In this document: positions 4,153 through 64,000 of the stretch, in pieces
Layout: each line of letters opens with the position of its first letter
How positions within the stretch are numbered: position 1 is the first letter of the stretch
Source of the DNA: Alkalihalobacterium alkalinitrilicum
Lineage (GTDB): Bacteria; Bacillota; Bacilli; Bacillales; Bacillaceae_F
Assembly (NCBI RefSeq): GCF_002019605.1
Contig: NZ_KV917368.1
Coordinates: 3,982,519-4,046,518, forward strand
Direction: 5' to 3'
Length of the DNA: 64,000 nucleotides
Notes under the pieces: model-generated
The model's input: only the letters and a program-made list of their open reading frames with translations
Database searches by the model: none
Told to the model about the DNA's origin: nothing
Translations under genes and position numbers: made by a program

Positions 4153-5169
4153 GTGAAACGCATAATAATGACATTGGCTTCTATCATTTTATTATTGTCT
4201 TTTTCATTACCAACAGTAAGTAACGCTGCACTCAACCAGATCGAGCTAGATGAGTTTTTAATAGAGATAGGATTGACGCAAGAAGAACTTGAAGATCAAC
4301 TCATGATTCATCACTTTATGGAATTAGGAGGTTTCGAATCAGTAGAAGAGTTGAGAGATTATTTAGGCCCTGTAATTGATGATGAAAATTTACAAGCTTT
4401 ACTGGATCAATATGGACTAACACTAGAGGAATTAGTCATTCTTTTAGAAGAGTACGGTGAAAGAATAGAAGATTATGTTTTTCTTTATGACCTTGAATTC
4501 ACGATTGATTTTTATCTTAACTTTGAAGATATCAGTTGGGAAGATATTCTTGCTGAATTAGATGCGATTTTTGCTGAGTTTGATTTAACAGCTGAAGAGC
4601 TTGAGCGATTGTTTGACCACTTTAGAAATCTTGATTGGGAAGATCCAGCTTTTGAAGAACGACTTTTTAATCTTGAAGAAAGAGCGATGGCCCTTCCAGA
4701 CTTTGAAAGTGCTACTGAACTGTCAGCGGAAGAGATTGCGGAAATTTTAGCAATTTATTCAGAATTAATGAACCTTCTTGAGTTAGATGCGAAATATTAT
4801 CTTATCGAAGGAAAAAACAAAGCGAGTAAACAGCCGATTTCATTGCAAACATTAGTTACGCTTGACCACTTAGAAGGGTACAATCTATTGATCGAGCTGT
4901 ATAATTTAGAGGGAGATTTCCTTGCTGATCTTATCATTACTGCGGATATGTTCGGATCTGATCTCATTAAAGAACCAGCAGGAGATATAAAAGAAGTGAA
5001 AGAAATTGTAAAGAAGGCTCCTGCTAAAGGTCAATCAGAGGCCAAAACAGAAAAAGGAGCAAAAATGCCGAAAACAGCATCAAACTCGATGCAAAATGCG
5101 TTAATGGGTGTCGGAATGATGTTAACGGCTGTGTTTATTTATCGTCGCTTTAAAGTTAAAGGGGTATAG
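4153..5169 (+). CDS. acidic surface protein with LPXTA-like sorting signal
   Basis: Secreted, extremely Glu/Asp-rich protein of 338 residues. It starts at a GTG seven bases after AGGAGG, has a signal peptide ending near SNA/ALN (residues 24-26), and then a long helical acidic region with repeated EELE/EDLE segments. The C-terminus is a wall-sorting signal: MPKTAS, a hydrophobic helix, then the basic tail YRRFKVK. The motif matches LPXTA rather than LPXTG and has Met in place of Leu. The class D sortase gene begins three bases after the stop codon, so a dedicated enzyme-substrate pair is likely. It resembles the 'processed acidic surface protein' type known from Bacillus sortase D loci. The function of the acidic region is unknown. 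Confidence 0.85.
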   Translation: MKRIIMTLASIILLLSFSLPTVSNAALNQIELDEFLIEIGLTQEELEDQLMIHHFMELGGFESVEELRDYLGPVIDDENLQALLDQYGLTLEELVILLEEYGERIEDYVFLYDLEFTIDFYLNFEDISWEDILAELDAIFAEFDLTAEELERLFDHFRNLDWEDPAFEERLFNLEERAMALPDFESATELSAEEIAEILAIYSELMNLLELDAKYYLIEGKNKASKQPISLQTLVTLDHLEGYNLLIELYNLEGDFLADLIITADMFGSDLIKEPAGDIKEVKEIVKKAPAKGQSEAKTEKGAKMPKTASNSMQNALMGVGMMLTAVFIYRRFKVKGV

Positions 5170-5172
5170 GCG

Positions 5173-5850
5173 ATGAGGCTAGAAGAAGGAAAGAGAAGAA
5201 GGAGGCGGACGAAACGTCTTCTTCTTCTGTCTGTATGTATTGTTCTGTTTGTAGGTGGATTTTGGTTTACGACAACAAACGCTTACACCTTTTTAAAAGG
5301 CTACGGGCTGTATAAGGTCAACGAGGTGAAACAAGATCGTGCCCCTGTTCAGGAAGTTGCAATTAGCGAAAAGGAAGCGAATGAGGATGAGGGCGAGGAC
5401 GAGGGTCCACTGTATCCTGAACGTCCCAGTCAAGGAGAGTTAATGGGGGAACTTTATATTCCAAAGCTGCAAGCAACGCTACCTATTTATCATGGAACGG
5501 ATGAGGATGAGCTAGAACGCGGTGTTGGCCATTTTCTAGGAAGTGTTTTGCCAGGTGAACAGGATAATAGTGTCTTATCAGGCCATCGTGACACGATTTT
5601 TCGTCATTTAGGAGAAGTCGGGGTACAAGATGACCTCATTGTAACAACGAGTGCTGGGGAATTTACGTACCGCATCAACAAAGTTCGGATCGTCGATGAA
5701 GATGACCGCACTGTAATCGTCCCTAAGCCAAGAGCAACCTTAACGGTAACGACTTGCTATCCGTTTGGGTTTATAGGTGCAGCACCTGAGAGGTATGTAT
5801 TAATTGCCCATTTGGTGAAATTCGATCGAGAGAAGAAGTTTGGTGTTTGA
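5173..5850 (+). CDS. srtD: class D sortase
   Basis: Membrane-anchored transpeptidase predicted to cleave sorting signals and attach proteins to peptidoglycan. A basic N-terminus precedes a transmembrane helix (about residues 16-36), a short acidic linker, and the sortase beta-barrel. The catalytic triad is visible: His138 in LSGHRDT, Cys195 in TLTVTTCYPFGF and Arg207 in APERYVL. The SGHRDT and TTCYPFGF forms are typical of class D. It starts three bases after the acidic surface protein and is followed by a terminator, so the two form a bicistronic unit. A second plausible substrate in this window is the LPKTA protein at 58689-59267. Confidence 0.93.
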   Translation: MRLEEGKRRRRRTKRLLLLSVCIVLFVGGFWFTTTNAYTFLKGYGLYKVNEVKQDRAPVQEVAISEKEANEDEGEDEGPLYPERPSQGELMGELYIPKLQATLPIYHGTDEDELERGVGHFLGSVLPGEQDNSVLSGHRDTIFRHLGEVGVQDDLIVTTSAGEFTYRINKVRIVDEDDRTVIVPKPRATLTVTTCYPFGFIGAAPERYVLIAHLVKFDREKKFGV

Positions 5851-45540: not shown

Positions 45541-45919
45541 AGTCAAAAAAGGAGTCTTCTTCCAGTTTGAGAGTATGTGGTTTCTTACTTATCTGACTTT
45601 GGGGAGGTACTCTTTTTTTATGTCTTGATAATCTAGTATGACCAAATTTGAATTATGCGACTGACAAAGATACAGCTTTTTCGTTTTAGTAAATCTAATT
45701 ACCTAACGAAATATATTTCGATTATGGTAGTATGTTTCGACACAAACCTTTAAAACTATTATCTATAAAAATATGACTTTTTGTCCAAATTTAGTTTTTT
45801 TTAGGTTTTTTTCTATAATTATGTAGAGATCTAGTGGCAATATTTATATAATGAAATCTGTAGGATGAAATTATATAATTGTCCTTGTGTTTAACACAAC
45901 AAATGGAGAGGAAGCGATT
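45541..45919. other. intergenic region upstream of the module-protein cluster
   Basis: About 380 AT-rich bases without a supported gene. A TATAAT-like TCTATAATTATG near 45810 could be the -10 of the SpoIID-like gene, but no clear -35 goes with it. Confidence 0.45.
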
Positions 45920-48652: not shown

Positions 48653-48699
48653 TTATAGAAAAAGCTTTGTTAAAAAAATGATCAAGTTGTTATGAATAG

Positions 48700-48740
48700 A
48701 AACTCGAAACATATACGGTCTCGTATATGTTTCGAGTTTT
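48700..48740 (+). terminator. terminator after the SpoIID-like gene
   Basis: A perfect 18-bp stem (48700-48717 with 48722-48739) with loop GTCT, the 3' arm ending in TTTT. Confidence 0.9.
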
Positions 48741-48857
48741 CAAAAAATATTACAACAACTTGAAGTAGTTTTTAGAAGCAAATTGAGATGGTACTAGTGT
48801 AGCACTTGAGTTTGCTAGCTAGTACCATTTTTCTATACATATGGAAGGAGGCTCGGA

Positions 48858-50687
48858 ATGTATTATAAAGACGTCCTAGTAAAAAAGAGTTATCTAATTA
48901 CCTTTTTATTCATTATGATTGTTGCATTTATGGCGGTTACCTCACCTAGTAATATTTCTGCAAATACAACTGTCGAAATTAGAGAACGGTTAACATTAAC
49001 AGAGCCCACTCATTTACACGATTCTGCATACTCCACTCGACAAGTCTCATTAATACAACCACAAACGGTAACTGCTACAGCCCAAAATGGTAGTTGGTTT
49101 CGGATTAACACGTGGCTTGGTCCGAAATGGATTAATCCAAGAAACGCTGTTCCATCAGAAATAACAGCGACTTCCAAACAATTGACTTTAACGAGAACAA
49201 CATCGTTGTACAATCAAACGATGTCCAATACAAAAATAAGTTCTTCAGTGAACCCACAGACCGTTCGAGTAACTGGCCAGTGGGGAAATTGGTACCGAAT
49301 TAATACATGGTTAGGATCAAAATGGATACAGCCAGTCGATCCAAGACCTGCTAATGTTGAAACCGTTTCTGAACGATTAACATTAACGGAAGTAACCCGA
49401 CTATACGATCAGCCATTTTCAAATAAGCGGATAAGTTCTAGTGTAAACCCACAAACCGTAACAGTTACAGGAAAATGGGGAGAATGGTATCGAATCAATA
49501 CTTGGCTTGGAGCAAAGTGGATCAAGCCAACCAACGCAGTTCCTTATAATATAGAAGAAATCAACAGATCTTCCGTTTTACTCCAAACAGCGCATCTGCA
49601 TAATCAGCCGTTGGCAGGGTCCAAAACATCTACGACCGTTCAACCTCAAGTGGTAACAGTGACAGGTCAATGGGGAGAATGGTATCGAATTAATACGTGG
49701 CAAGGTCCGAAATGGATAGAAGGAAGAACGATTTCTTCGACACCGATTACAGAAATATCGCAACAATTAACTCTCGAGCATGCGGTTCCTCTTCATAACC
49801 ATCCGATTACAAGCACGAAGCAAAACAATGAAGTAAAGCCACAGACAGTTAACGTCATTGCGAAATGGGGAGAATGGTATCGAATCAATACGTGGTTAGG
49901 TCTGAAATGGATAAATCCAAATATAGTCGTCATTTCACAAACCGAAAAAAAATACGGAATTGTGAAGGTGAATAGCACATTGAATGTCCGTAGTGGTCCA
50001 GGGTCATCCCATCCAGTCATCGGTGCATTAGCGAATGGTACGAGTGTAACGATCATAAATGAGTTAAATGGCTGGTACCAAATTGAATTCTCGAATCATA
50101 ACGGCGCTGCTTATGTTTCGGCAGATTTTATCGAAATACAAAGCCATTCTGCAAATGGGAAGTATACTGTGTTCATTGATGCGGGACATGGGGGAACCGA
50201 CCCAGGTGCTCTAGGAAGAGTCAGTACAGAAGCCAATCTTGTCTTGAGCATTTCTAATAAGATAATTAATCTACTAGAGAATGATCCGACGATTAATGTT
50301 CATTATTCTAGAAAAGATGATAGTACTGTCGCATTAGGTGATCGGCCCAAACTAGCAAACGCAGTAAATGCTGATCTATTTTTATCAGTTCATGCAAATG
50401 CAGCAACTGGAACAGCAACAGGGACCGAAACCTGGATGTCAAAAAGTATTGACCGGCCATTTGCTGAGATCGTTCATCAACACTTGATTAAAGCTACTGG
50501 ACTTAGAGACAGAGGATTGAAAACAAGTAGTTTTAGAGTATTAAGGGATACAAATATGCCAGCAGCCTTAATAGAAGTTGGATTTATTGATAATCCAAGT
50601 GAAGAGACGCTACTTTTAAACAATAACTTTCAAAATAGAGTTGCAACTGCAATGTATAACGCAATTAAAGAATACCTTGAAAAATAG
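48858..50687 (+). CDS. N-acetylmuramoyl-L-alanine amidase with five INTW modules and SH3b
   Basis: Secreted zinc amidase that cuts the MurNAc-L-Ala bond of peptidoglycan. After an N-terminal hydrophobic signal (to about residue 35) come five ~65-residue modules (WYRINTWLGPKWINP type). A canonical SH3b domain (LNVRSGPGSSHPVIG, about 370-430) follows, then a C-terminal Amidase_3 domain. Zinc and catalytic residues are present: His444 in DAGHGG, Glu458 in TEANLVL, His512 in SVHANA and Glu573 in IEVGFIDN. Here the modules come before the enzyme, unlike in the four neighbours. The ATG follows AAGGAGGCTCGG. Confidence 0.94.
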   Translation: MYYKDVLVKKSYLITFLFIMIVAFMAVTSPSNISANTTVEIRERLTLTEPTHLHDSAYSTRQVSLIQPQTVTATAQNGSWFRINTWLGPKWINPRNAVPSEITATSKQLTLTRTTSLYNQTMSNTKISSSVNPQTVRVTGQWGNWYRINTWLGSKWIQPVDPRPANVETVSERLTLTEVTRLYDQPFSNKRISSSVNPQTVTVTGKWGEWYRINTWLGAKWIKPTNAVPYNIEEINRSSVLLQTAHLHNQPLAGSKTSTTVQPQVVTVTGQWGEWYRINTWQGPKWIEGRTISSTPITEISQQLTLEHAVPLHNHPITSTKQNNEVKPQTVNVIAKWGEWYRINTWLGLKWINPNIVVISQTEKKYGIVKVNSTLNVRSGPGSSHPVIGALANGTSVTIINELNGWYQIEFSNHNGAAYVSADFIEIQSHSANGKYTVFIDAGHGGTDPGALGRVSTEANLVLSISNKIINLLENDPTINVHYSRKDDSTVALGDRPKLANAVNADLFLSVHANAATGTATGTETWMSKSIDRPFAEIVHQHLIKATGLRDRGLKTSSFRVLRDTNMPAALIEVGFIDNPSEETLLLNNNFQNRVATAMYNAIKEYLEK

Positions 50688-50702
50688 AATAGAAGGCACA
50701 CC

Positions 50703-50747
50703 AAAAAAACAGGTACTGTATTGATTTACAGCACCTGTTTTTTTTTG
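50703..50747 (+). terminator. terminator after the amidase gene
   Basis: AAAAAACAGGT/ACCTGTTTTTT with an inner CTGTA/TACAG stem and a long T-run. Confidence 0.9.
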
Positions 50748-50948
50748 TGTGCTGAAAATAATATAGCAATTCTGAGGGACGTCCTTTGAGTAAAATAGTA
50801 AATAACAACTACAATTTTTAAAACTAGTAAAAAAATATAAGAAATTAAACTGAAGTTACATGTTTTTACAAAAAAATTAAATATTTTCCTGTATAATAAA
50901 ATTACTTTTATTTATCCTACAAAACTACTAATTCTTTGGGTGGGTGAT

Positions 50949-52817
50949 ATGATGAGAAACATTGCAGTTATTATCGTTTTATTAGTTAGTTTTTTAATTG
51001 GTATGCCGCATGAAGCAGAGGCATCTAACCAAGGACAATTAATTATTATTAACAAGAGTAATAATCAACTAGCCTTTTATGATAATGGTAAATTAGTAAG
51101 GACATTTAGTGTAGGTACAGGACGGGATAATGCATTTACTCCAGAAGGTACCTTTAAGATTGTTAATAAAATAAAAAACCGTCCATATTATTCTGGAAAT
51201 ATACCAGGCGGTGATCCAAGAAATCCACTTGGTGACCGTTGGCTAGGTTTAGACGCAAGAGGTACATATGGAACAACCTATGCTATTCATGGAAATAACA
51301 ACCCTGCTTCAATTGGTAATTATGTAAGTGCTGGCTGTGTCAGAATGCACAACCATGAGGTTCGCTGGCTATTTGATCAAGTAAAATTAAATACAACAGT
51401 AATCATTACGAATACCAACAACACATTTGAACAAATTGCGAGATCTCGTGGTTATCAAATAACGCAAGGGCAAGCAATCAATAAGACCATTACAGTGTTA
51501 GAAAGAACACATTTATATAATCAACCAAATACGAGTAGCAGAACTTCTGCTGTATTAAACCCTCAATCGGTCAGGGCAACTGAGAAACTATCAAATTGGT
51601 ATAAAATCAATACATGGATGGGTCCGAGGTGGATTCCTTCTAATAACACGATTGATGGTACGATCAAAAATATTTCACAAAAATTGACATTAACCGAAAA
51701 TGCACGTCTACATAATCAACCGATTGCTAATACGAGAAGGTCTGAAGTTTTACGTCCTCAAATGGTACAAGCAACAGGAGAATGGAATGGTTGGTACCGT
51801 GTAAACACGTGGTTGGGCTCGAAATGGATTAAACCGTCGAATGTAATCGTTGGGGAAATTAAATCAATCTCGCAAAAAATAACATTAACCCAAAATACAT
51901 ACTTGCATAACCAACCTTTTACAAACACAAGAAGATCAGAATTACTACGTCCGCAAACTGTACAGGCAACAGGGGAATGGAATGGCTGGTACCGAATTAA
52001 TACATGGGTAGGACCAAAGTGGATTAAACCGTCGAATGCGATTGTAGGAGAAATTAAGCAAATCTCGCAAATTATAACATTGACGCAAAATACGTACTTG
52101 CATAATCAACCATTTGACAATACAAGAAGATCAGACTTGTTACGCCCGCAAACTGTACAAGCAACAGGAGAATGGAATGGCTGGTACCGAATTAATACAT
52201 GGGTAGGACCAAAGTGGATTAAACCGGCGAATGCGATTGTAGGAGAAATTAAGCAAATCTCGCAAAGTATAACATTGACGCAAAATACGCATTTGCATAA
52301 TCAACCATTTGCAAATACAAGGCGATCAGAAGTGTTAGGTCCACAGACGGTACAGGCAACGGGAGAATGGAATGGCTGGTACCGAATTAATACATGGGTA
52401 GGATCAAAATGGATTCAACCAACTAATGCAATTGTAGGAGAAATTAAATCGATTTCGCAAAGTATAACGTTAACGCAAAATACGCATTTGCATAATCAAC
52501 CATTTGCAAATACAAGGCGATCAGAAGTGTTAGGTCCACAGACGGTACAGGCAACGGGAGAATGGAATGGCTGGTATCGAGTGAATACGTGGTTAGGATC
52601 AAAATGGATTCAACCAACTAATGCAATTGTAGGAGAAATTAAATCGATTTCGCAAAGTATAACGTTAACGCAAAATACGTATTTGCACAATCATCCATTT
52701 GCAAATACGAGAAGGTCTGAAGTTCTTCAACCTCAGACTGTTCATGCGATAGGCGAATGGAATGGTTGGTACCAAATTAATACATGGATTGGTCCCAAAT
52801 GGATTAAAGTAAATTAA
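50949..52817 (+). CDS. L,D-transpeptidase (YkuD) with seven INTW modules
   Basis: Secreted L,D-transpeptidase that can form 3-3 cross-links or attach proteins to peptidoglycan. A signal peptide ends near EAEASNQ. The YkuD domain (about residues 27-155) has His114 in AIHGNN and the catalytic SAGCVRM with Cys130 and Arg132. Seven ~65-residue modules follow to the very C-terminus. Modules 5 and 6 are almost identical in DNA, so they were duplicated or converted recently. I start at ATG 50949 after GGTGGGTGAT; the GTG at 50940 lies within that site. Confidence 0.93.
   Translation: MMRNIAVIIVLLVSFLIGMPHEAEASNQGQLIIINKSNNQLAFYDNGKLVRTFSVGTGRDNAFTPEGTFKIVNKIKNRPYYSGNIPGGDPRNPLGDRWLGLDARGTYGTTYAIHGNNNPASIGNYVSAGCVRMHNHEVRWLFDQVKLNTTVIITNTNNTFEQIARSRGYQITQGQAINKTITVLERTHLYNQPNTSSRTSAVLNPQSVRATEKLSNWYKINTWMGPRWIPSNNTIDGTIKNISQKLTLTENARLHNQPIANTRRSEVLRPQMVQATGEWNGWYRVNTWLGSKWIKPSNVIVGEIKSISQKITLTQNTYLHNQPFTNTRRSELLRPQTVQATGEWNGWYRINTWVGPKWIKPSNAIVGEIKQISQIITLTQNTYLHNQPFDNTRRSDLLRPQTVQATGEWNGWYRINTWVGPKWIKPANAIVGEIKQISQSITLTQNTHLHNQPFANTRRSEVLGPQTVQATGEWNGWYRINTWVGSKWIQPTNAIVGEIKSISQSITLTQNTHLHNQPFANTRRSEVLGPQTVQATGEWNGWYRVNTWLGSKWIQPTNAIVGEIKSISQSITLTQNTYLHNHPFANTRRSEVLQPQTVHAIGEWNGWYQINTWIGPKWIKVN
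51684..52812 (+). repeat. 195-bp tandem coding repeats in the L,D-transpeptidase gene
   Basis: Modules 2-7 repeat every 195 bases. The stretches around 52263-52455 and 52458-52650 match nearly base for base, including synonymous positions, unlike the more diverged modules in the neighbouring genes. Confidence 0.85.
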
Positions 52818-52831
52818 TAGAAAAGGAAAGT

Positions 52832-52863
52832 AAAGAACCGAGTAGATCATCTACCGGTTCTTT
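52832..52863 (+). terminator. terminator after the L,D-transpeptidase gene
   Basis: AAAGAACCG/CGGTTCTTT with an inner TAGA/TCTA stem; the T-run is short (TTTAGTTT). Confidence 0.65.
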
Positions 52864-53021
52864 AGTTTGGTTATTTATAAGGGGAAAAACCGACAAAACA
52901 TGACCAAGTATCCATAAAATTGTTAAAAAGAACTAGAAATTGTTGGTTTTTATAGTATAATTGTTAAGTATGTAAAATATATGGAAAAATCTAAAAAAAT
53001 GTCAAAAAAGGAAGTGTGAAG

Positions 53022-56000
53022 ATGGGGAAAGCATCATTCAATAGGCTAATTGCCGTAATGTTAGTCGTATTTTTATCATTACAACACTTACTGCCTATTG
53101 GAACGGTATTAGCAATAAGTGCTACGGATTCCTCGGTAAAAACAGAGATTGAAACTGAAGCCGAAGCACTCATTTCTAGTGAAGAAGAAGTAGATAAAAA
53201 GTTAGAAGAACCAACACCTCAAGAGATAGAGACTAAGGAACAAGAGGTGGACGAGGAAACCTTAAAGAAAGAAGAACAAGATAAAATAGGTGTCCAAGCT
53301 GAGAAAGCTGCAGAAAAAGTTGATAATACAGAAGAAGCTGAAACGGTAGAAAAAGTAGAATCCGTTGAAGAAGTAGAATCAAGTTTAGTAGAAAGCAGTG
53401 AAGAAACGGAAACACCGAAAAGACAAGGTACTACAAAGCGAGATACTGGAGCATTCTCTGCGTTAAATAATGATTGGATGATAGCAGATCTAGATGATTT
53501 AGATTTATCCGAAGGGCAAACGAAAGCACAATATCTTGTAGAAGCTCTAGTTGGTTCTGGAGTTGTTGTAAAAAACATTAAATATACAGGTGTCGACAGA
53601 TCGGCTGGTTTTTTTATAACGGAAGAAGATATTATTGGCTTTGAGAGTGGAATTATTTTAAGTACAGGAAGTGTCCATAACGTTCAAGGACCCAATACAG
53701 TCGATGACATTTCAGCCAATAATGGTTTACCAGGAGACCCAGATTTAAATTCACTCATTCCAGGCTATACAACATATGATGCGACAATATTAGAGTTTGA
53801 ATTTATTCCTACATATGATGAAATCTTTTTTGAATATGTGTTTGCTTCTGATGAATATAACGAATACGTAAATAGTTCATTCAATGATGTTTTTGGTTTT
53901 TTTGTAAATGGGCAAAATGTTGCAACAATTCCAGGAACAGATACACCTGTTGCAATAAATACAGTCAACGGTGGAAAACCTTATGGAACCAATGCCAGCC
54001 ATCCTGAACTTTATAGAAATAATGACCTGAACGATGGCGGTGGAGATATCAACACGGAAATGGACGGTTTAACAGTAGTCCTTCCAATTAGAGCCAAAGT
54101 AAAACCGAATCAATTTAACACGATTAAGCTAGCTATCGCCGATGCAGGAGATCATATTTTAGACTCGAATGTTTTTATTAAATCAGGAAGCTTTATTGGG
54201 CAAGCAGGGGTGATGTCAGGCTTAGGAGCAAAAGAAAACATTAAAGGTCAACAGCCTAATTACCCAGAGAAAACAGTCGGTGAACCTGTCATTGATCCGA
54301 TTGATAGTGCAACAGGAGCCCAAGTCTTATATGAAACTCTATTAACGGTTAACGGTGCTTTTCCATTAACATTCGATGTTCTTTATAATTCTTTACTGTT
54401 AGATGAAGGAATGATGGGAACAGGTTGGACGAATAATTATGAAATGAGTATTCAAGAGTCAGAGGGTGGAATTGTTAATATCCTCTGGGATTCTAATCGA
54501 ATAAACACATTTGTTGAGATGGATTCAGGTGGTTATACTTCACCAGATGAAGCATTGAAACATTACAACTTAACGAAAAATAATGATGGTAGCTTTACAT
54601 TAGAACATAACAATGGTGAAAAATATGAGTTTAACGCAGATGGGCAACTAGTGCAAAAGTACAATTCCTATCAACAAGTATTAAATTATTCTTATAACGA
54701 GTCAGGACAGTTAACGAGTGTCACGGAGCCCATTTCGGGACAACAATTACATTTTTCCTACAATAATGCAGGTTTGTTAACGACGGTTGCTGATAACGTA
54801 GGGAGAGAAGTAAAGTTTAACTACGACGAAGAAGAGCTCCTCGTTGCAAAGGTAGATCCAGAACAAAATTCGATCGCCTTTACTTACAACGAAGTGAGAC
54901 AAATTGTCACAGCAACAGATTCGAATGGTAAACAAATTTTTAGTAATACATTTGATGAAGCTGGTCGTGTTATTGCCCAAAAAGACTCAAAAAATCAACA
55001 AGGACAATTTGAGTATGATGAAGATATGGAAGAAGGGCGCCTAGTAACGACGTTTACTGACCGAAAAGGAAATCAAACGATCTTTACGTATAACAACCTC
55101 TATCAACTGTTAAGTCGTACGGATGAATTAGGAAATACGAAACGCTTTGAATACGACTCGCATGGAAATAAGGTAAAAGAAATAGATGAAGGCGGGAATC
55201 TAACTACTTTCTCCTATGATGACCGTGGCAATGTTACAAGTATTACCGACGCACTAGGTCGTACGACGAAAATGACATATGATGCTCGTAATAATTTGCT
55301 ATCAGTTGAAAATGCAAAAGGTGATAAGCATAGCTTTTCTTATAATGAGCGTAATCAAGTAACGAAAGTAACCGATCCTCAAGGAAATAGTGTTAATCTT
55401 GAATATGATCAACAAGGCTTATTAACGAAAAATACGGCACCTAAAGGCGGCACAACGAACTTTACGTATCATCAAGGCTTAGTCCGTACCATGGTTGATT
55501 CAAATGGAAATACGACAACGTTTGAATTTGATCAAATCGGTCAACTCATCTCGTATACGGACCCGGAAAGTTATACAACGACATTTTCCTATAATAAAAA
55601 TGGGTATTTAACCAAGGTAACGAACGCTCTCGGTTATCACATCATTTACAGCTATGATCAGTTTGGTAATTTAATGCAAGAAACAAACTCAAGAGGTAAC
55701 ACTACGAAATATGAATACGATGGGAATAATAATTTGATTAAGGAAACCAATGCGCTTAATCAAACCATTCAATTTAATTACGATGCTGAGGATTTGTTAA
55801 CATCCATCACGGATGCACGTGGAAATACCACTCGTTTTAGTTACGATCAAAAAGGTAGAATAACGGGGTTAACGAATCCGCTAGACAATTCAATAACACT
55901 AGCGTACGATGCAGTAGGCAATATCATTAATGAAAAAGATGCCAATGGGAATACGGTTTCCATCGCCAACTACGATAGCGTCGGGAACATGATCGAACTA

Positions 56001-58088
56001 AAGAATGCCCTAGGTCATACAGAGACGTTTGAGTATGACAATGTAGACTTACTTAAGAAAATAACAACGGAGCAAGGGACGTTACTTAATATTGATTATG
56101 ATGCAATTGGTAGAGCGGTTCGTTCAGTAGATGCGTTAAGCGGAGTTAGTCAGCAAGGGTTTGACTCAGAAGGAAATCAAACGTCTTTAACAGATGCAAA
56201 TGGAAATACATTGCAATTTGCGTTTAATCTACTAGGAGACTTAACCTCTGTTGAGTCGGCCAATGGTCATACTATACATTATGAATATGATAATCGTGGT
56301 TTGATTAGTAAAATGACCAATGGCAGAGGACAAGAAACAACTTATGAATATGATCCATTAGGTCGTGTGATTACACTAGTTGAGCCAGAAAATACGTCTC
56401 ATTACACTTATGATGAAAATAATAATATCTTAACAATAACAGACAATTTAGGTACAATAAGCTACGTATATGATGCATTTGATAGAATCATTAAGTATAC
56501 CGATGTATATGGAAACATCATTCAATATGGATATGATGCTAATCATAATATAACAAAATTAACATATCCAAACGGAAATGACGTTCACTACAGCTATGAT
56601 AGCGCCAATCAATTAGTTGAGGTAAGAGATTGGAAAGATCGTACAACTCGTTATTCATACGATGAAAATGGTCGATTACTAGAAACGTCTCGACCAAACG
56701 GCACGGTAGAAACGAGAACGTATAATGAACTTGGACAACTCATAGCAACTCAAGATGTTTCATCAAGTGGAGAGGTTATTAATCATTACCAATATACTTA
56801 TGATGAAGTGGGTAACATCGTATCGGAACAAAATGAGATATCAATGAATATTGATATTGTCCCAAGTTCCATAACAGCTTCGTATTCATCAGGCAATCAA
56901 GTGAATACGATGAATGACCATACAATGATTCATGATGAAGATGGAAATCTTACAACAGGTGTTTTACAAGGCGGGCAAGCTGAATTTGAATATGACTCCC
57001 GTAATCGCTTAGTTTCAACAGGACATACGGAATATACGTATGATATTAACGACCAGCGTGTGGCACTAACAGAAGGTGGGGAAACGACAAAGTATGTGGT
57101 TAATCCTATTGCCCATCTATCACAGGTGCTAATGGAGACAGACTCTGAAGGTAATCTACTAAACTCTTATATTTACGGAATTGGTTTAATTGGTTTTGAA
57201 GATGAACAATTCGATTATTTCACTTATCACCAAGATTATAGAGGAAGTACGACGGCTATTACAGATGAAGAGGCAACTGTTGTTGCTCGGTACATGTATG
57301 ATCCATTCGGGAATATCATCGCCAAAGAAGGAAACGTGGATCAACCGTACTTATATACGGGTCAGTACGGTGTCGAAACGGACCATAACGGCCTTCTCTT
57401 TATGAGAGCTAGATATTATCAACCAGAAACACAACGCTTCTTAAATGAAGATATTGTCAAGGGGTCTGTATTATTAGGACAATCATACAATCGTTATGCA
57501 TACTCTCGTAATAATCCTGTAATGTTTGTCGACCCGGATGGAGAGTGGGCCCATATTGCCATTGGAGCGGGAATTGGTGCCATAGTTGGTGGAGTAACTG
57601 CAGCGATTGCAGGAGATGGTATTAAAGATGTTGTTGCGGGCACTTTAGGCGGTGCAGTAGCAGGAGGTATTACTGCAGCAGCTGCACCAGTAGCTCTCGG
57701 TGCAGGTCTTGTAGGAGGTACAGCCATCACAGTAACTTCAGGTGCTGGAGCAGGTATTGCCGGTGAATTAACTTCTTCCTTAGTTAAATGGGAAAAACCA
57801 AAGGGAAGCGACATAGCGACAGCAGCTCTTTTAGGTGCAATCCCAATCAAAACCGGAACATCGAAGTACTTACAGAATACGAATACAGGATTGAAAAACC
57901 TTCAAAAAGGTTTAAACAATGCTCAATACGGATTAAGTAAACAAGCTCAAGCCAATGTTGCGAAACAAAAAAAATCGCTCAACAACCAATTGAAAGTAGC
58001 GAAGGGGCTTGATAACTGGGCACCAGATGTGTTTACTCATGTAACAGGTTGGGCATTAAAAGGCGGAACAGCCAAAGGAATTAAATAA
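53022..58088 (+). CDS. RHS/YD-repeat surface protein with choice-of-anchor-L-like domain (possible polymorphic toxin)
   Basis: 1688-residue secreted protein. A signal peptide (to about 33) and a Glu-rich spacer (about 38-130) precede a choice-of-anchor-L-like domain (about 145-400; GIILSTGSV, FEFIPTYDEIFFEYVFASDEY, DVFGFFVNG). About 30 YD repeats (YDxxGxxxxxTDxxGNxxxFxY) fill 430-1420 and would form the RHS shell. The RHS core motif (LLFMRARYYQPETQRFLNED, SRNNPVMFVDPDGEW) ends near 1510. The last ~175 residues, a Gly/Ala hydrophobic stretch and a Lys-rich end, are the variable tip, as in WapA-like toxins. I recognise no enzyme in the tip. ATG 53022 follows AAGGAAGTG. The next gene encodes a membrane protein in the immunity position. 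Confidence 0.88.
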   Translation: MGKASFNRLIAVMLVVFLSLQHLLPIGTVLAISATDSSVKTEIETEAEALISSEEEVDKKLEEPTPQEIETKEQEVDEETLKKEEQDKIGVQAEKAAEKVDNTEEAETVEKVESVEEVESSLVESSEETETPKRQGTTKRDTGAFSALNNDWMIADLDDLDLSEGQTKAQYLVEALVGSGVVVKNIKYTGVDRSAGFFITEEDIIGFESGIILSTGSVHNVQGPNTVDDISANNGLPGDPDLNSLIPGYTTYDATILEFEFIPTYDEIFFEYVFASDEYNEYVNSSFNDVFGFFVNGQNVATIPGTDTPVAINTVNGGKPYGTNASHPELYRNNDLNDGGGDINTEMDGLTVVLPIRAKVKPNQFNTIKLAIADAGDHILDSNVFIKSGSFIGQAGVMSGLGAKENIKGQQPNYPEKTVGEPVIDPIDSATGAQVLYETLLTVNGAFPLTFDVLYNSLLLDEGMMGTGWTNNYEMSIQESEGGIVNILWDSNRINTFVEMDSGGYTSPDEALKHYNLTKNNDGSFTLEHNNGEKYEFNADGQLVQKYNSYQQVLNYSYNESGQLTSVTEPISGQQLHFSYNNAGLLTTVADNVGREVKFNYDEEELLVAKVDPEQNSIAFTYNEVRQIVTATDSNGKQIFSNTFDEAGRVIAQKDSKNQQGQFEYDEDMEEGRLVTTFTDRKGNQTIFTYNNLYQLLSRTDELGNTKRFEYDSHGNKVKEIDEGGNLTTFSYDDRGNVTSITDALGRTTKMTYDARNNLLSVENAKGDKHSFSYNERNQVTKVTDPQGNSVNLEYDQQGLLTKNTAPKGGTTNFTYHQGLVRTMVDSNGNTTTFEFDQIGQLISYTDPESYTTTFSYNKNGYLTKVTNALGYHIIYSYDQFGNLMQETNSRGNTTKYEYDGNNNLIKETNALNQTIQFNYDAEDLLTSITDARGNTTRFSYDQKGRITGLTNPLDNSITLAYDAVGNIINEKDANGNTVSIANYDSVGNMIELKNALGHTETFEYDNVDLLKKITTEQGTLLNIDYDAIGRAVRSVDALSGVSQQGFDSEGNQTSLTDANGNTLQFAFNLLGDLTSVESANGHTIHYEYDNRGLISKMTNGRGQETTYEYDPLGRVITLVEPENTSHYTYDENNNILTITDNLGTISYVYDAFDRIIKYTDVYGNIIQYGYDANHNITKLTYPNGNDVHYSYDSANQLVEVRDWKDRTTRYSYDENGRLLETSRPNGTVETRTYNELGQLIATQDVSSSGEVINHYQYTYDEVGNIVSEQNEISMNIDIVPSSITASYSSGNQVNTMNDHTMIHDEDGNLTTGVLQGGQAEFEYDSRNRLVSTGHTEYTYDINDQRVALTEGGETTKYVVNPIAHLSQVLMETDSEGNLLNSYIYGIGLIGFEDEQFDYFTYHQDYRGSTTAITDEEATVVARYMYDPFGNIIAKEGNVDQPYLYTGQYGVETDHNGLLFMRARYYQPETQRFLNEDIVKGSVLLGQSYNRYAYSRNNPVMFVDPDGEWAHIAIGAGIGAIVGGVTAAIAGDGIKDVVAGTLGGAVAGGITAAAAPVALGAGLVGGTAITVTSGAGAGIAGELTSSLVKWEKPKGSDIATAALLGAIPIKTGTSKYLQNTNTGLKNLQKGLNNAQYGLSKQAQANVAKQKKSLNNQLKVAKGLDNWAPDVFTHVTGWALKGGTAKGIK

Positions 58089-58120
58089 TGATTTTGTAAA
58101 TTGTTTTTGGGGGATTTTTT

Positions 58121-58633
58121 ATGATAACAGGTATTACGATTATTTTAACAGCGATCATTACAGGGATACTTTATAAATCGATAGAAACGGGTGTCGAGAG
58201 AAAAGCAGAGAAACTAAAACATCTCGAAATGAATAATCGGAAGTTTACGTATTCTACTATCGGTATCCTTTTAGAAGTTGTCATCTATTCAGGTCTTGGC
58301 TTGATTTGTTTTTCCGTGTTCTTTTTCGGAGAACATATCGTTCAATACGTTATTTTGATCGCTGTAGGATGTTTATTATTGTTCTTAGCCTATTATCGAG
58401 CTACTATTTTAACGAAAAAGCGCTTGGAATTGTCTAGTGGCCAAATATATTATTATTACGGAAAACAACCTAATAAAGTGTTACGAATTAAATTAAATAA
58501 CATTAGCTATGTTGAGATGAATTTTTTAATGTTTCATCTTCATATGAATAATGATCAAACGATAAAACTACCCATGTTATTTAATGAATGCAGTCTCGTA
58601 TACAGTATATTAAAATATCATCGCCCCCAATGA
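58121..58633 (+). CDS. small membrane protein, candidate immunity protein for the RHS tip
   Basis: 170 residues. An N-terminal hydrophobic helix (about 2-20), a Lys/Glu-rich segment, and two adjacent helices (about 45-66 and 72-90) are followed by a ~75-residue beta-type domain (GQIYYYYGKQPNKVLRIKLN) like a small PH/YdjO-type fold. It begins 32 bases after the RHS stop codon, behind GGGGG. A small gene directly after an RHS tip is usually the cognate immunity protein, and a membrane location fits a tip acting at the membrane. No sequence family is recognised; the role is inferred from position. Confidence 0.6.
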   Translation: MITGITIILTAIITGILYKSIETGVERKAEKLKHLEMNNRKFTYSTIGILLEVVIYSGLGLICFSVFFFGEHIVQYVILIAVGCLLLFLAYYRATILTKKRLELSSGQIYYYYGKQPNKVLRIKLNNISYVEMNFLMFHLHMNNDQTIKLPMLFNECSLVYSILKYHRPQ

Positions 58634-58688
58634 ATAGAATGGTTAGACTAGACATCCTTATTGGAGAATATAAAGGAGAACGTAAAAA

Positions 58689-59267
58689 ATGAAGAATTTC
58701 TCATTTAAACCGCTCATTTATTTCATAGTTCTATTTGCTATGTTTCTACCATCATCGGCATTAGCCGCTACTTATACCTATGATGAACTGAATCGGATAA
58801 CATCTGTTACGTATAATGATGGACAAACGATTGAATATACTTATGATAGTACAGGAAATATTTTATCAGTAACACAAAACGGAGGAGCGCCAACGGAAGA
58901 GACTCCTCCTCAAGAAGAAACACCACCTGGTGAAAGCACACCTCCTGGAGAAATTCCAACACCTGAGGAAGACACACCACCTAATGAAAGTACACCTCCT
59001 GAAGAACCAACTCAGCCAGAAGCTGGGGGAAATCCTCAGGATGAAACAGTTTCAGAAGAGGATGTAAGAATAGGTGGAGGAAATAATGAAAATGATCAAG
59101 AGGTAAGAGAAGAAGTAGAAGAAGGGAAAGAAGTGGCAGGTGAAGACCACGGACTTCCTAAAACAGCGACTTCAATGTTTAACTGGATATTTGTTGGAAT
59201 TATCCTTTTAGGTGCAGGTATAGCAACGATTGTAATTGTCAAAAGAAGACAGAATTTAACAGAGTAA
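58689..59267 (+). CDS. mini YD-repeat protein with LPKTA wall-sorting signal
   Basis: 192 residues. A signal peptide ends at ALAATYTYD. One YD-repeat pair follows (YTYDELNRITSVTYNDGQ, EYTYDSTGNILSVTQNG), of the same type as in the RHS protein upstream. A Pro/Glu/Thr-rich stalk (EETPPGEST repeats) and an acidic stretch lead to LPKTAT, a hydrophobic helix and KRRQN. LPKTA is an LPXTA signal like the MPKTA of the acidic surface protein beside sortase D at 5173, so that sortase is its likely enzyme. It could dock or retain the RHS protein at the wall. The ATG follows AAAGGAG. Confidence 0.82.
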   Translation: MKNFSFKPLIYFIVLFAMFLPSSALAATYTYDELNRITSVTYNDGQTIEYTYDSTGNILSVTQNGGAPTEETPPQEETPPGESTPPGEIPTPEEDTPPNESTPPEEPTQPEAGGNPQDETVSEEDVRIGGGNNENDQEVREEVEEGKEVAGEDHGLPKTATSMFNWIFVGIILLGAGIATIVIVKRRQNLTE

Positions 59268-59280
59268 TAATTAATTAAAG

Positions 59281-59316
59281 AAGCTAACACTCATCTTATG
59301 ATTGGTGTTAGCTTTT
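59281..59316 (+). terminator. terminator after the RHS unit
   Basis: AAGCTAACAC/GTGTTAGCTT stem followed by TTTT, just after the LPKTA protein. Confidence 0.85.
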
Positions 59317-59544
59317 TCTATGAAAGGCCTTCCTACCGAGCGCCTATAGCAATATGAAAGTTTGTCGGATTGTAATAGAATAATTGATTTATTTCCCTCT
59401 TTACCTAATAATATGAAGTAGTAAAGCTGTTATTTTTCATGATATATTTATTCATAGTTAAGTAGTTATTTAAAAGATGGTATTAAGATGGAAACCAACC
59501 TATCTTAAAATCCAATCAACATTATTAAAAGGTAGGGGACATAT

Positions 59545-61716
59545 TTGAAAAAATTATTATCCATTCTTATCGTATTTCTTTTTATATTTCAACTTGTTCC
59601 TCACGTAGACGCACAAAGTGATGAAGAAATTATTATTCTTTTTAAAGATAAAATCGATTTAGACATCATTGGACAAGTTAAAGGAAAAGTAGAGCACGAG
59701 TTTGAAAACATCCCTGCAGTAGCGATCACCGTTTCTGAAGAGATGAAAGAGGCGTTGGAAAACAATCCGAATGTACTAGCGATTGAAAGTGATCAAGTCA
59801 TTCAAATTCAAAGTCAAGCTCAAGTCCAAGATTGGGGAATTAAACGGATAAATGCACCAAATGCTTGGGAAGCAGGCTATACGGGAAAAGGGGTCAAAAT
59901 TGCTGTAATCGATACTGGTATTGCTCCACATAATGACTTAAAGATTGCAGGAGGAGCTTCCTTTACCCCCTATACAACGTCATATGTCGATGATAATGGC
60001 CATGGAACGCATATCGCTGGAATTATTGGCGCGAGAAACAATGGTTTCGGAACAGTCGGTGTTGCTCATGAAGCTGAGCTTTACGCCGTAAAAGTACTTG
60101 GGAAAGATGGAAGTGGTCTTCTTTCAAGTATTGTTGCAGGGATTGATTGGGCCATCACAAACAATATGGATATCATTAATTTAAGCTTAGGTGCTGAAAT
60201 TGAGTCACCCTCATTGAAGGAAGCTGTAGATCGAGCCTATAATAATGGCATTTTAGTCGTCGCTGCCGCTGGAAATAATGGATCTACGAATGGAGTAGGA
60301 GACACTGTGAACTTTCCAGCACGATACGATTCCGCGATTGCAGTATCGGCTACAAACAAAAGTGATCAAAGGGCAACCTTTTCTGCTACGGGGAATGCTG
60401 TAGAACTGGCAGCTCCTGGTGTTGAAATCTATAGCACCCATTTAAAAAATGGTTATGCTCATATGAGCGGAACTTCGATGGCAACACCTTATGTTTCGGG
60501 TAATCTAGCCCTTTTAAAAGAAGCTTACCCCAATCTAAGTCCAGCACAAATACGTGAAAAACTACAAAAAAATGTCATTGATTTAGGAGCAAATGGAAGA
60601 GATCCATGGTTTGGATTCGGTTTAATTCAAGCTCCTCAAATAGTAGAGAATGATCCTAATGAGCCTGGAGATGGAGAAGAACCGAAGGACCCAGATCCAG
60701 TACAACCCGTTGATCCAGTGGAACCACCTAAACCACCAGAGCAACCGATTTTTACTATCCAACTAACGGAAAATACGTATTTGTTTGACCATATTAATGG
60801 AAAACGGCGGATTGAATTTTTAAGACCGCAACGCGTTTCCGTATTTGAAGAAGTCAATGACTGGTATCGAATTAATACGTGGATTGGACCGAAGTGGATC
60901 AAACCAAACAATCCGCTTCTAGGAGAACCAACTTCCACCTCAGCGCGGATTACGATAACAGAAAATACCTATTTGCATAACCATCCGTGGAGTAGTGCTA
61001 GAAGAAGTGAGTTTTTACGCCCTCAAACAGTTACTGCTATTGAAGAGTGGGGAGAGTGGTACCGAATTAATACGTGGATCGGACCGAAGTGGATCAAACC
61101 AAATAATCCGCTTCTCGGGCAACCAACTCCGATCTCAACGCGGATCACGATAACAGAAAACACCTATTTGCATAATCATCCGTGGAATAGTGCTAAACGA
61201 AATGAATTTTTGCGTCCACAGACTGTGACAGCATTTGAAGAATGGAATGGATGGTATCGAATTAATACGTGGCTTGGACCTATGTGGATTCAACCGAATC
61301 GGCCATTAATCGGCGAACCGAATCCGATTTCATTGAAATTGACGTTAACCGAAAATACTTTTTTGCATAATCAACCGTGGAATAGTGCAAGGAGAACTGA
61401 GTTCTTGCGTCCGCAGGCAGTGACAGCATTTGAAGAATGGAATGGATGGTACCGAATTAATACGTGGATTGGACCGAAGTGGATCAAACCAAACGATCCA
61501 TTAAAAGGGGATCCAACAAATGTTACTATAAGTATACACTTAATAGAAAATACGTATTTACACGATCAACCGTGGAACAGTGCTAGAAGAAATGAATTTT
61601 TACGTCCGCAAACTGTTACAGCCGTTCAAGAGTGGGATGGATGGTATCGAATTAATACATGGATTGGCCCTAAATGGATTCAACCGAGTAAAGTATCAAT
61701 AAATAATCAAGACTAG
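59545..61716 (+). CDS. subtilisin-like serine protease with five INTW modules
   Basis: Secreted S8 protease, 723 residues. A signal peptide (to about 24) and an I9-like propeptide (about 27-90) precede the catalytic domain. The triad is Asp123 in VIDTGIA, His153 in GHGTHIAGII and Ser311 in GTSMATPYVSG; the oxyanion Asn is in AAAGNNG. A Pro/Asp/Glu linker (DPVQPVDPVEPPKPP) leads to five ~65-residue modules ending at the C-terminus. The modules here have the variant LHNHPW instead of LHNQPF. It starts at TTG 59545 after AAAGGTAGGGG. The protease should be held at the wall by the modules and may process neighbouring surface proteins. Confidence 0.94.
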   Translation: MKKLLSILIVFLFIFQLVPHVDAQSDEEIIILFKDKIDLDIIGQVKGKVEHEFENIPAVAITVSEEMKEALENNPNVLAIESDQVIQIQSQAQVQDWGIKRINAPNAWEAGYTGKGVKIAVIDTGIAPHNDLKIAGGASFTPYTTSYVDDNGHGTHIAGIIGARNNGFGTVGVAHEAELYAVKVLGKDGSGLLSSIVAGIDWAITNNMDIINLSLGAEIESPSLKEAVDRAYNNGILVVAAAGNNGSTNGVGDTVNFPARYDSAIAVSATNKSDQRATFSATGNAVELAAPGVEIYSTHLKNGYAHMSGTSMATPYVSGNLALLKEAYPNLSPAQIREKLQKNVIDLGANGRDPWFGFGLIQAPQIVENDPNEPGDGEEPKDPDPVQPVDPVEPPKPPEQPIFTIQLTENTYLFDHINGKRRIEFLRPQRVSVFEEVNDWYRINTWIGPKWIKPNNPLLGEPTSTSARITITENTYLHNHPWSSARRSEFLRPQTVTAIEEWGEWYRINTWIGPKWIKPNNPLLGQPTPISTRITITENTYLHNHPWNSAKRNEFLRPQTVTAFEEWNGWYRINTWLGPMWIQPNRPLIGEPNPISLKLTLTENTFLHNQPWNSARRTEFLRPQAVTAFEEWNGWYRINTWIGPKWIKPNDPLKGDPTNVTISIHLIENTYLHDQPWNSARRNEFLRPQTVTAVQEWDGWYRINTWIGPKWIQPSKVSINNQD

Positions 61717-61746
61717 CATTTAAAATATTACAGTTATTGCCAAATG

Positions 61747-61774
61747 GAGTGCAACTTGTACTCTATTTTTTTTT
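61747..61774 (+). terminator. terminator after the subtilase gene
   Basis: GAGTGCA-ACT-TGTACTC hairpin followed by TA and nine T residues. Confidence 0.7.
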
Positions 61775-61831
61775 GTCGAAATATGGTTAAATAGATAGAT
61801 AGTTACTGATAGATAGGAAGGAGATGAAGCG

Positions 61832-64000
61832 TTGTTTAGGAGAAAAGTAATAGCACTCATTTTTATATTTTCATTAATTACTAGTTTGATTCCAGTAAAT
61901 ACGATCACGTTCGCATCGACTAGTAATATCGTGAATAAAAATCAAGTCTATTCATACGAACAAATGACGAATGATATTAAGAGACTTGCCCAAAGATACC
62001 CTAATATAATGGAGTATCGATCTCTTGGAAAAAGTACATATGGTCGAGAGATTTGGGCGGTAAAGTTAGGTAACGGTGATGCGAACGTCTTTATCAATGC
62101 ATCCCACCATGCAAGGGAATGGGGCACAACGAATGTTGTGATGACGATGATTGACCAATACGCTCAGGCACATAGTAGAGGTCAAAACTATCAAGGGTAT
62201 AATGTGCGAGACCTTTTAAGTAAAACAACGATTTGGTTTGTACCGATGGTTAACCCTGATGGTGTTACCTTACAACAACGAGGGTTGTCAGCCTTTCCAA
62301 GCCATCTTCATAGTAGTTTAATTACGATGAATGCTGGGAGTAGAGATTTCGGGCGCTGGAAAGCAGATGCAAGGGGAATTGACCCTAACCGACAATATCC
62401 AGCGAAATGGTCAACGATTAGAAATAATCCAGGTCGTCCCTATTATTCCAATTTTAAAGGGACTCAACCATTACAAACACCAGAAACTCGACTTGTAGCC
62501 GATTTTACGTATCAAATTAATCCTGAAATCGCGGTGGCTTACCATTCGACAGGAAATATCATTTACTGGCACTTCCATAACAGACCAGAAAACGTCAATC
62601 GTGATCGAGCGATCGCTAATCAGTTTTCAAATATTACGGGCTATACTTTAGTCCAACCAACATCTAATCCTTCTGGAGGAGGATATACTGACTGGTTTAT
62701 TCAAGAGTTTGGCAGACCAGGCTTTACGCCTGAAATATGTTCATATATTCCAGAAAATCGTTATGCAGGAAGCCATCAAGCTATTTTAAATTGTATTAAT
62801 GATGCTTGGGATCGAAATAAGTCAATCGGTTTATTTATAGCGAATGAAGGGCACAAACTATGGGCAAATAAAACGAGTAATATCAATGAAAAGATTACTC
62901 TTTTAGAAACAACAAGAATGTATAATCAACCATTAGAGCAAACAAGAATAGCGGCAAAGATTAATCCACAAGCCGTTACCGCTTTTCAAAGGCAAGGGTC
63001 TTGGTATCGGATTAACACATGGCTAGGACCAAAATGGATCAAACCGACGAATGCGATTGTTGGGGAAATTCAAGCAGTAGACAAAGAAGTAAGGTTAACT
63101 GAAAATGCCTATCTTCATAATCAACCACTAGCTAGTTCAAGAAGATCTGAAGTTCTTCGTCCACAGACGGTACGAGCATTTGAGGAATGGAACGGCTGGT
63201 ACCGTATTAATACATGGGTCGGTCCGAAATGGATCAGACCAAATAATGCAATCGTCGGTGAAGTGAAACAAGTAGATGAGACGATTAGATTAAGTGAGGA
63301 TACACGTCTTCACAACTTACCATCTACGAATCATCGAAGATCCGAAATTATCCGTCCACAAACGGTACGAGCGTTTGAGGAATGGAACGGCTGGTATCAC
63401 ATTAATACGTGGGTCGGTCCAAAATGGATTAAGCCAAATCATGCTATTATCGGTGATGTGAATTCAATCGATGAGCGCATTACGCTAACAAGCAATACCC
63501 ATTTGCACAATCATCCGTTTACGAATCACCGCAGGTCCGATATCGTTCGTCCCCAAACGGTACGAGCGTTTGAAGAGTGGAACGGCTGGTATCGAATCAA
63601 CACTTGGCTCGGCCCGAAATGGATTAAGCCAACAGATGCGATCATCGGTGAAATCAATGCAGTCGATGAACAACTAACATTAACAAGTAATACGCATTTA
63701 CACAACCATCCATTTGATACACATCGACGATCAGAGGTCGTTCGTCCGCAAACCGTACGAGCATTTGAAGAATGGAATGGTTGGTACCGAATCAACACAT
63801 GGCTTGGTCCGAAATGGATTAAACCAAGTGATGCGATGATCGGTGAAATTACATCGATTGATGAACGTCTAACACTGACGAGGGATGCGCATTTACACAA
63901 CCATCCGTTTGATAACCACCGCCGATCAGAGTTGTTACGCCCGCAAACGGTACAAGCGTTTGAGGAATGGAACGGCTGGTATCGCATTAATACGTGGCTT
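61832..64000 (+). CDS. M14 zinc carboxypeptidase with six or more INTW modules (3' end beyond window)
   Basis: The frame starts at TTG 61832, eight bases after AAGGAG, and stays open for 723 codons to the window edge. A signal peptide (MFRRKVIALIFIF...) ends near TFASTS. The M14 domain (about residues 40-335) has zinc ligands His93 and Glu96 in SHHAREWG and His238 in AYHSTGN, and the catalytic Glu301 in FTPEICSY. Gram-positive M14 enzymes of this kind include gamma-D-glutamyl-diaminopimelate peptidases acting on wall stem peptides, the likely role here. Five complete ~65-residue modules and part of a sixth follow, with the variant RAFEEWNGWYRINTW. Confidence 0.92.
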   Translation, partial: MFRRKVIALIFIFSLITSLIPVNTITFASTSNIVNKNQVYSYEQMTNDIKRLAQRYPNIMEYRSLGKSTYGREIWAVKLGNGDANVFINASHHAREWGTTNVVMTMIDQYAQAHSRGQNYQGYNVRDLLSKTTIWFVPMVNPDGVTLQQRGLSAFPSHLHSSLITMNAGSRDFGRWKADARGIDPNRQYPAKWSTIRNNPGRPYYSNFKGTQPLQTPETRLVADFTYQINPEIAVAYHSTGNIIYWHFHNRPENVNRDRAIANQFSNITGYTLVQPTSNPSGGGYTDWFIQEFGRPGFTPEICSYIPENRYAGSHQAILNCINDAWDRNKSIGLFIANEGHKLWANKTSNINEKITLLETTRMYNQPLEQTRIAAKINPQAVTAFQRQGSWYRINTWLGPKWIKPTNAIVGEIQAVDKEVRLTENAYLHNQPLASSRRSEVLRPQTVRAFEEWNGWYRINTWVGPKWIRPNNAIVGEVKQVDETIRLSEDTRLHNLPSTNHRRSEIIRPQTVRAFEEWNGWYHINTWVGPKWIKPNHAIIGDVNSIDERITLTSNTHLHNHPFTNHRRSDIVRPQTVRAFEEWNGWYRINTWLGPKWIKPTDAIIGEINAVDEQLTLTSNTHLHNHPFDTHRRSEVVRPQTVRAFEEWNGWYRINTWLGPKWIKPSDAMIGEITSIDERLTLTRDAHLHNHPFDNHRRSELLRPQTVQAFEEWNGWYRINTWL

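Follow-up and report, generated by a model that had tools for sequence, protein, structure and literature searches.

How a large exported RHS protein may be held on the cell surface is the question raised by a three-gene unit of Alkalihalobacterium alkalinitrilicum. We analysed a stretch of 64,000 nucleotides (contig NZ_KV917368.1, positions 3,982,519 to 4,046,518; hereafter the window), in which three consecutive open reading frames on the + strand encode an RHS protein, a small membrane protein and a secreted protein with a single pair of YD repeats (hereafter the mini-YD protein). Our explanation is that the three genes make up a single RHS polymorphic-toxin unit whose surface partner acts in trans: the mini-YD protein would be dedicated to the RHS shell and would here tether it to the wall; to this explanation as a whole, docking and anchoring included, we assign a probability of about 0.5. 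Docking, wall fixation, toxicity and immunity are the parts that we infer. Secreted single-pair YD proteins are a recurrent class and not an isolated oddity, and because relatives show this recurrence, the pattern is more than chance. The features are as follows.

53022..58088, + strand: RHS protein gene, 1688 amino acids from ATG 53022 (open reading frame, family matches).
57543..58085, + strand: tip after the Rhs core (hydropathy and motifs; no family match).
58121..58633, + strand: membrane protein gene in the immunity slot, 170 amino acids (hydropathy).
58689..59267, + strand: mini-YD protein gene, 192 amino acids (RHS_repeat and LPxTATN matches).
59278..59317, + strand: terminator hairpin ending the unit (folding against shuffles).
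5173..5850, + strand: class D sortase found with an LPxTATN-specific model (3e-60), the likely enzyme for the mini-YD signal.

The gaps are 32 bases between the RHS gene and the membrane protein gene and 55 bases between the latter and the mini-YD gene. A consensus scan found no terminator-like site on the + strand in either gap; its sole + strand site was at 53592, within the RHS gene. The hairpin at 59278-59317, which the scan did not list, has 14 plus 3 pairs and a U run in the 3' arm (-20.4 kcal/mol, z -5.7), and 0 of 200 shuffles folded equally well. The open reading frames and this hairpin agree with the gap lengths and the single shared terminator given in a preliminary description of the locus. 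The RHS gene may start at GTG 53016 or ATG 53022, of which the ATG is better placed, behind GGAAG.

The mini-YD protein consists of a signal peptide (residues 1-27), one YD pair (28-64), a proline/glutamate-rich stalk and an LPKTA sorting signal (156-187). Two RHS_repeat stretches were matched (4.7e-12), and the pair aligned by sequence to internal parts of RHS and teneurin proteins of solved structure (best 1.2e-7). In an AlphaFold2 model, strands are placed at residues 28-31, 37-41, 47-52 and 58-64, with block means of the predicted local distance difference test (pLDDT) of 91-97 for residues 31-60; the stalk is disordered (pLDDT about 51-68), helices are located at the signal peptide and the C-terminus, and there is no other fold. 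The protein matched the LPxTATN sorting domain (NF058670, 2.3e-12, 47 bits against a cut-off of 32), as is required of a substrate. The genome encodes two sortases. The one at 5173-5850 was matched by the model of the cognate enzyme (NF058671, 203 bits against a cut-off of 140), and a processed acidic surface protein of the LPXTA kind (TIGR04383) is encoded directly upstream, the pair spanning 4153-5850 of the window. The anchor and its enzyme are therefore both present, and the mini-YD protein is likely to be an LPxTATN substrate of the class D sortase, with linkage to the wall predicted. Its YD part was not matched in any of the six further genomes of the family, no relative of the full protein was found on plasmids, and among named genomes the full protein gave one match, in the stalk region only (query 68-106).

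The RHS protein (residues counted from GTG 53016) comprises, in order, a signal peptide, an acidic region, a choice-of-anchor L domain (173-393; NF038133, 1.8e-75), DUF6531 (427-499), a YD-repeat shell (RHS repeats, 428.8 bits), the Rhs_assc_core (1428-1509) and a tip. It has the DUF6531, the YD/RHS repeats and the Rhs-associated core of an RHS polymorphic toxin, and its best solved relative by sequence is 7q97 (E 4.5e-59). No wall-binding domain (CBM96/DNRLRE, LysM) was matched in it in Pfam or NCBIfam. CBM96, which we take to be DNRLRE-like, was found in eight of ten RHS proteins from the order of the window at whose loci the profile gave no secreted mini-YD protein, a ninth having an overlapping Disaggr_repeat, whereas neither domain was matched in any of 11 others (the window RHS protein and the first 700 residues of 10 mini-YD-linked RHS proteins). 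SLH, LysM and CBM96 were likewise not matched in the whole RHS neighbours of three mini-YD genes at loci L188, L235 and L161. We rejected a general complementarity between a mini-YD partner and a wall domain in cis: ten RHS proteins of the family f50, selected by size and eight of them without a mini-YD partner, gave CBM96 in 0 of 10. Because these also lack CBM96, the complementarity is a contrast within the window's order only.

The anchor-L/DUF6531 part had no match in the family's six further genomes. Of the matches to it in 397 genomes of the order, those in G195 and G008 are relatives of the anchor-L part, and the rest cover the DUF6531 side. In the G195 protein, anchor-L and an LPxTATN signal share a single chain; in the window, the same two features are split over two genes. 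Two side observations concern the N-termini of other RHS proteins. Those of L250, L251 and L258 share an unusual N-terminus with no obvious signal peptide, which is phage-tail or VgrG-like by eye only, and those of L242, L246 and L243 have an N-terminal subtilase domain.

To describe the class of mini-YD proteins, we took a sample of 35 loci from among the matches listed, in which the match covers a signal peptide and the frame is under about 900 amino acids, irrespective of the neighbours; an RHS gene was counted in this sample when it encodes 900 amino acids or more on the same strand. In 33 of the 35 loci there is a secreted protein whose YD pair is the only one, and an RHS gene lay within 1 kb of the mini-YD gene in 26 and within 5 kb in 29. 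Over all profile-scanned loci, a score of at least 20 bits was reached by 113 unique non-RHS frames, of which 87 have a signal peptide as called by a simple hydropathy rule. Exactly one pair occurs in 85 of these 87, and the 26 non-secreted frames have 1 to 9 pairs (12 have one). For the 85 proteins, a set in which some loci were picked with their neighbours in view, an RHS gene was found within 0.3, 1, 2 and 5 kb of 33, 42, 50 and 57, respectively. In 62 of them, the start of the pair falls among the first 50 residues.

The window's phylum has many more mini-YD proteins among the matches listed, and such proteins also occur beside RHS genes in Pseudomonadota and Bacteroidota. Their genes lie 3 to 153 bases before the RHS gene in Methylomonas koyamae, Methylomonas sp. 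DH-1 (two loci), sp. UP202 and Methylosinus sp. C49 (the Methylosinus protein, at 44.9 bits, is outside the 85), and 7 bases after it in Aureispira anguillae, where the mini-YD protein has a type IX secretion (T9SS) tail. After the pair, other members carry Ig-like, fn3, RCC1, GBS_Bsp-like, SLH or weak CBM domains, or nothing recognised. No fusion of a signal peptide-YD pair with an RHS shell was seen in the loci examined; a 2236-residue frame in G829 was rejected as such a fusion, since it encodes a mini-YD protein with repeats that look RCC1-like by eye and the RHS gene behind it is a separate one. A T9SS match in Hymenobacter remains a candidate only, with no RHS gene among its annotated neighbours, and matches in Nostoc and Calothrix were set aside as lying within large proteins.

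We compared each of 35 neighbour-linked pairs (40 bits or more) with mini-YD and RHS proteins. For all 35, no stretch of the RHS protein from the same locus scored as high as the mini-YD protein of some unrelated system. This result is partly expected, since profiles of such pairs served to collect the candidates, and with close relatives among the 35 it is better read as a check of consistency than as proof. In 34 of the 35, the score with such a mini-YD protein was also higher than that against RHS proteins of unrelated systems. The window pair scored 143 with the L188 pair, 82 with its own RHS protein and 103 with the best other RHS protein. These comparisons bear on whether recombination, which is typical of rhs loci, produced the mini-YD gene as a leftover of an RHS gene. 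Twenty-six YD-bearing pieces without a signal peptide (20 bits or more) do occur in the same loci and would fit such an origin; however, the mini-YD proteins have their own signal peptide, a single pair in almost all secreted candidates, pairs unlike those of the neighbouring RHS proteins and, in the window, an intact sorting domain. On the single-pair count and the pair kinship we rejected RHS debris as an explanation, and an origin as a remnant is very improbable.

The distances among mini-YD proteins track those among their RHS neighbours (30 pairs, Mantel r 0.41, 0 of 5000 permutations), a correlation that is uncorrected for lineage and that shared ancestry could also give. We further compared eight pairs of related loci. 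In five, the tip is replaced (11-32% identity) while the mini-YD protein (72-94%) and the RHS core (86-95%) are retained; one is a same-tip pair (97, 98 and 100%), and two with an incomplete RHS gene were left out. Judged from these identities, the mini-YD protein is shown to be inherited with the shell and not with the tip in these relatives. The preliminary description had predicted that tip and membrane protein gene vary together under a constant shell and mini-YD protein; the half of this prediction that concerns the tip, the shell and the mini-YD protein holds in five pairs of relatives and not at the window's own locus, where variation of the tip is not traceable because the family's other six genomes contain no relatives.

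The presence of a surface signal differs with gene position. Within 1 kb, 37 mini-YD genes precede the RHS gene and five follow it, or six with L231, whose start codon is unclear. Five of the six that follow carry a surface signal, namely LPxTATN in the window, three SLH domains each in L188 (1.4e-42), L235 (3.9e-41) and L231 (1.8e-39), and a T9SS tail in L161 (2.9e-9); no surface signal was found in the sixth, L194. The LPxTATN, SLH and T9SS signals were thus found in 5 of 6 genes after and 0 of 37 before the RHS gene (Fisher p 6e-6, uncorrected for lineage). Adding IPTL-type tails and one lipobox pattern gives 5 of 6 against 4 of 37 (p 0.0007, likewise uncorrected). The IPTL-type tails belong to three Methylomonas proteins, that of L159 at the cut-off of 20.5 bits, that of L217 at 14.8 and that of L221 judged by near identity to L159. 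The layout closest to the window is that of L235, where the RHS gene is followed after 35 bases by a gene encoding a signal peptide, a YD pair and three SLH domains. SLH-bearing mini-YD proteins also occur in L233 and L234, with no large RHS gene in the stretch examined.

We propose the following mechanism, in which the RHS chain and the mini-YD chain are exported by Sec, as their signal peptides predict. The single YD pair, with its four short strands, would join the YD sheet of the shell, probably where this sheet has an open edge or end, and the segment following the pair would thereby be fixed to the shell. The class D sortase (SrtD) would link the LPKTA signal on the flexible stalk to peptidoglycan and so tether the complex, so that the shell and its tip would be displayed at the surface and could meet neighbouring cells. 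Membranes would be the target of the tip, against which the small membrane protein would shield its producer. The window RHS protein, which has no recognised wall-binding domain, would in this way be held on the surface by its mini-YD partner. More broadly, and tentatively, the single YD pair may be a general docking tag for RHS shells across phyla, combined with interchangeable anchors (LPxTA, SLH, T9SS, IPTL) or adhesion domains and inherited with the shell while tips swap. As many relatives carry other domains or nothing after the pair, anchoring would then be one use of a broader YD tag.

Several results weigh against these proposals, in addition to the limits given above for the kinship scores, the Mantel correlation and the positional contrast. 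Recognised surface signals were found in only 10 of 86 proteins (the window's, five with SLH, one with a T9SS tail and three with Methylomonas tails), or 11 with the lipobox pattern, which occurs in one of the 86; all 86 were scanned for SLH domains, LPxTG-like ends, lipoboxes and hydrophobic tails, a scan that did not cover T9SS tails, and Pfam covered 19 proteins plus the window's. The earlier interpretation of the mini-YD protein as a wall anchor for the shell is therefore supported in part: adjacency to RHS genes, surface signals and tip change favour it, and the lack of a recognised anchor in most relatives does not. Moreover, a large RHS gene on the same strand is absent from the surrounding 5 kb for 28 of the 85 mini-YD genes; ten of these have one elsewhere in the stretch, five lie by RHS pieces, ten are in three arrays and three have none. 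Occurrence without RHS genes had been named beforehand as a point that would tell against a link between the two; the 28 genes touch it.

These 28 genes, and the tandem arrays of secreted one-pair genes found at L185, L192, L197, L201, L204, L213 and L214, would also be expected if the mini-YD proteins were independent adhesins that share surface-competition islands with RHS genes. We consider this quite unlikely, given the 33 of 85 that lie within 300 bases of an RHS gene (some overlapping it), the co-divergence and the constancy across tip swaps. As an observation on the arrays themselves, those at L213, L214, L197 and L201 lie near RHS genes.

Minimal members of the class, with a signal peptide and a pair only, are several (70-101 amino acids), and because of them anchoring cannot be the general role. 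Four of them, in L151 (70 amino acids), L168 (73), L177 (82) and L218 (83), are encoded 25 to 144 bases before an RHS gene. Together with the high variability of what follows the pair, they favour the chief rival, in which the YD pair is a part of the shell (a cap, lid or folding partner) that closes or folds the cocoon, the C-terminal module and any anchor being secondary. However, RHS genes frequently occur without such a partner: 20 loci that were selected in the family f50 because they contain a large RHS frame gave one mini-YD protein above the profile (L253) and one weak candidate by eye (L243), which also weighs against our own proposal. In addition, the pair is at the C-terminal end in 16 of the 85 proteins, a position that fits a tag better than a cap. 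We regard a role as a shell part alone as unlikely, and it may hold together with docking of a surface partner.

The tip and the membrane protein complete the proposed unit. The 181 residues after the core contain two Gly/Ala-rich hydrophobic stretches (1514-1532 and 1539-1557) with GxxxGxxxG motifs, followed by a K-rich tail, and by analogy the tip is a candidate membrane-acting toxin. The protein of 58121-58633 has three hydrophobic stretches by hydropathy, no match in NCBIfam and only two matches in Pfam, both below the cut-off. From its position and hydrophobicity, it would protect the producer. It was matched in 3 other genomes of 299 at E 0.001; one clear relative is a broken gene in another genus of the family with no RHS gene nearby, and no RHS match was found near the relatives in the three stretches examined. 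The composition of the unit is thus as first described, with an RHS core and a distinct tip, a small membrane protein in the immunity slot and a third protein that carries one YD pair on a sortable stalk.

The unit is flanked, within 45887-64000 of the window, by a run of genes for secreted proteins that each have tandem repeats of the WYRINTWLGPKWIKP type, which the RHS unit lacks. Members of this run are SpoIID-like, amidase and M14 peptidase proteins (by eye) and an L,D-transpeptidase and a subtilase (family matches). A further open reading frame of 1690 amino acids lies at 23953-29025 on the - strand.

If the tag exists as proposed, separable, recognisable and with exchangeable anchors, it would offer an explanation, for many lineages, of the surface retention of large Sec-exported RHS toxins. 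It would also mark RHS operons in which small genes are annotated as hypothetical proteins, as in Methylomonas, and the YD pair could serve as a handle for mounting cargo on YD shells. A single-YD partner of RHS proteins was not found described in the titles or abstract openings of the open-licence papers that our searches listed.

A YD shell made from two chains is known from TcB and TcC of the ABC toxins, each of which has many YD repeats. The likeness lies in the use of two chains; the mini-YD protein differs in having a single pair, and the unit is not a split shell of that kind. Bacterial teneurin-like proteins are reported to have YD shells, variable toxic C-termini, immunity genes and, in Gram-positive bacteria, predicted surface-binding domains (PMC13018210). 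Those domains are on the same chain, unlike in the window, and the teneurin YD-shell model gave 25 bits with the window RHS protein, under its cut-off of 50. EsxX, TelE and Tse5 are reported to be membrane-active toxins, mostly with membrane immunity proteins, EsxX and TelE having a glycine-zipper motif (PMC12744356); the window tip and membrane gene resemble such glycine-zipper toxins and their immunity proteins by analogy, with no sequence match shown. Among the WapA-type RHS toxins of Gram-positive bacteria, WapA of S. suis is reported to have LysM repeats and a cognate SrtB (PMC12704120). Toxins of this type have a Sec-exported RHS shell with a variable tip and are held at the wall; for the window RHS protein, export and wall location are predicted and the tip is a candidate for such variation. 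They differ in that their wall domain is in cis, whereas none was matched in the window RHS protein.

The nearest published idea that we met is that of MafA, a lipoprotein encoded beside the MafB toxin gene in Neisseria and proposed as a toxin tether (PMC3482391). Both systems have a separate surface-anchored protein whose gene adjoins a polymorphic toxin gene. No lipobox was found in the window mini-YD protein, which is thus not anchored in the manner of MafA. The mafA gene lies upstream of mafB, and MafA is tied to MafB-N, whereas here the YD pair would be the link and several kinds of anchor occur. The look-alikes with other anchors beside RHS genes in distant bacteria suggest a so far undescribed way of mounting such toxins on the cell surface.
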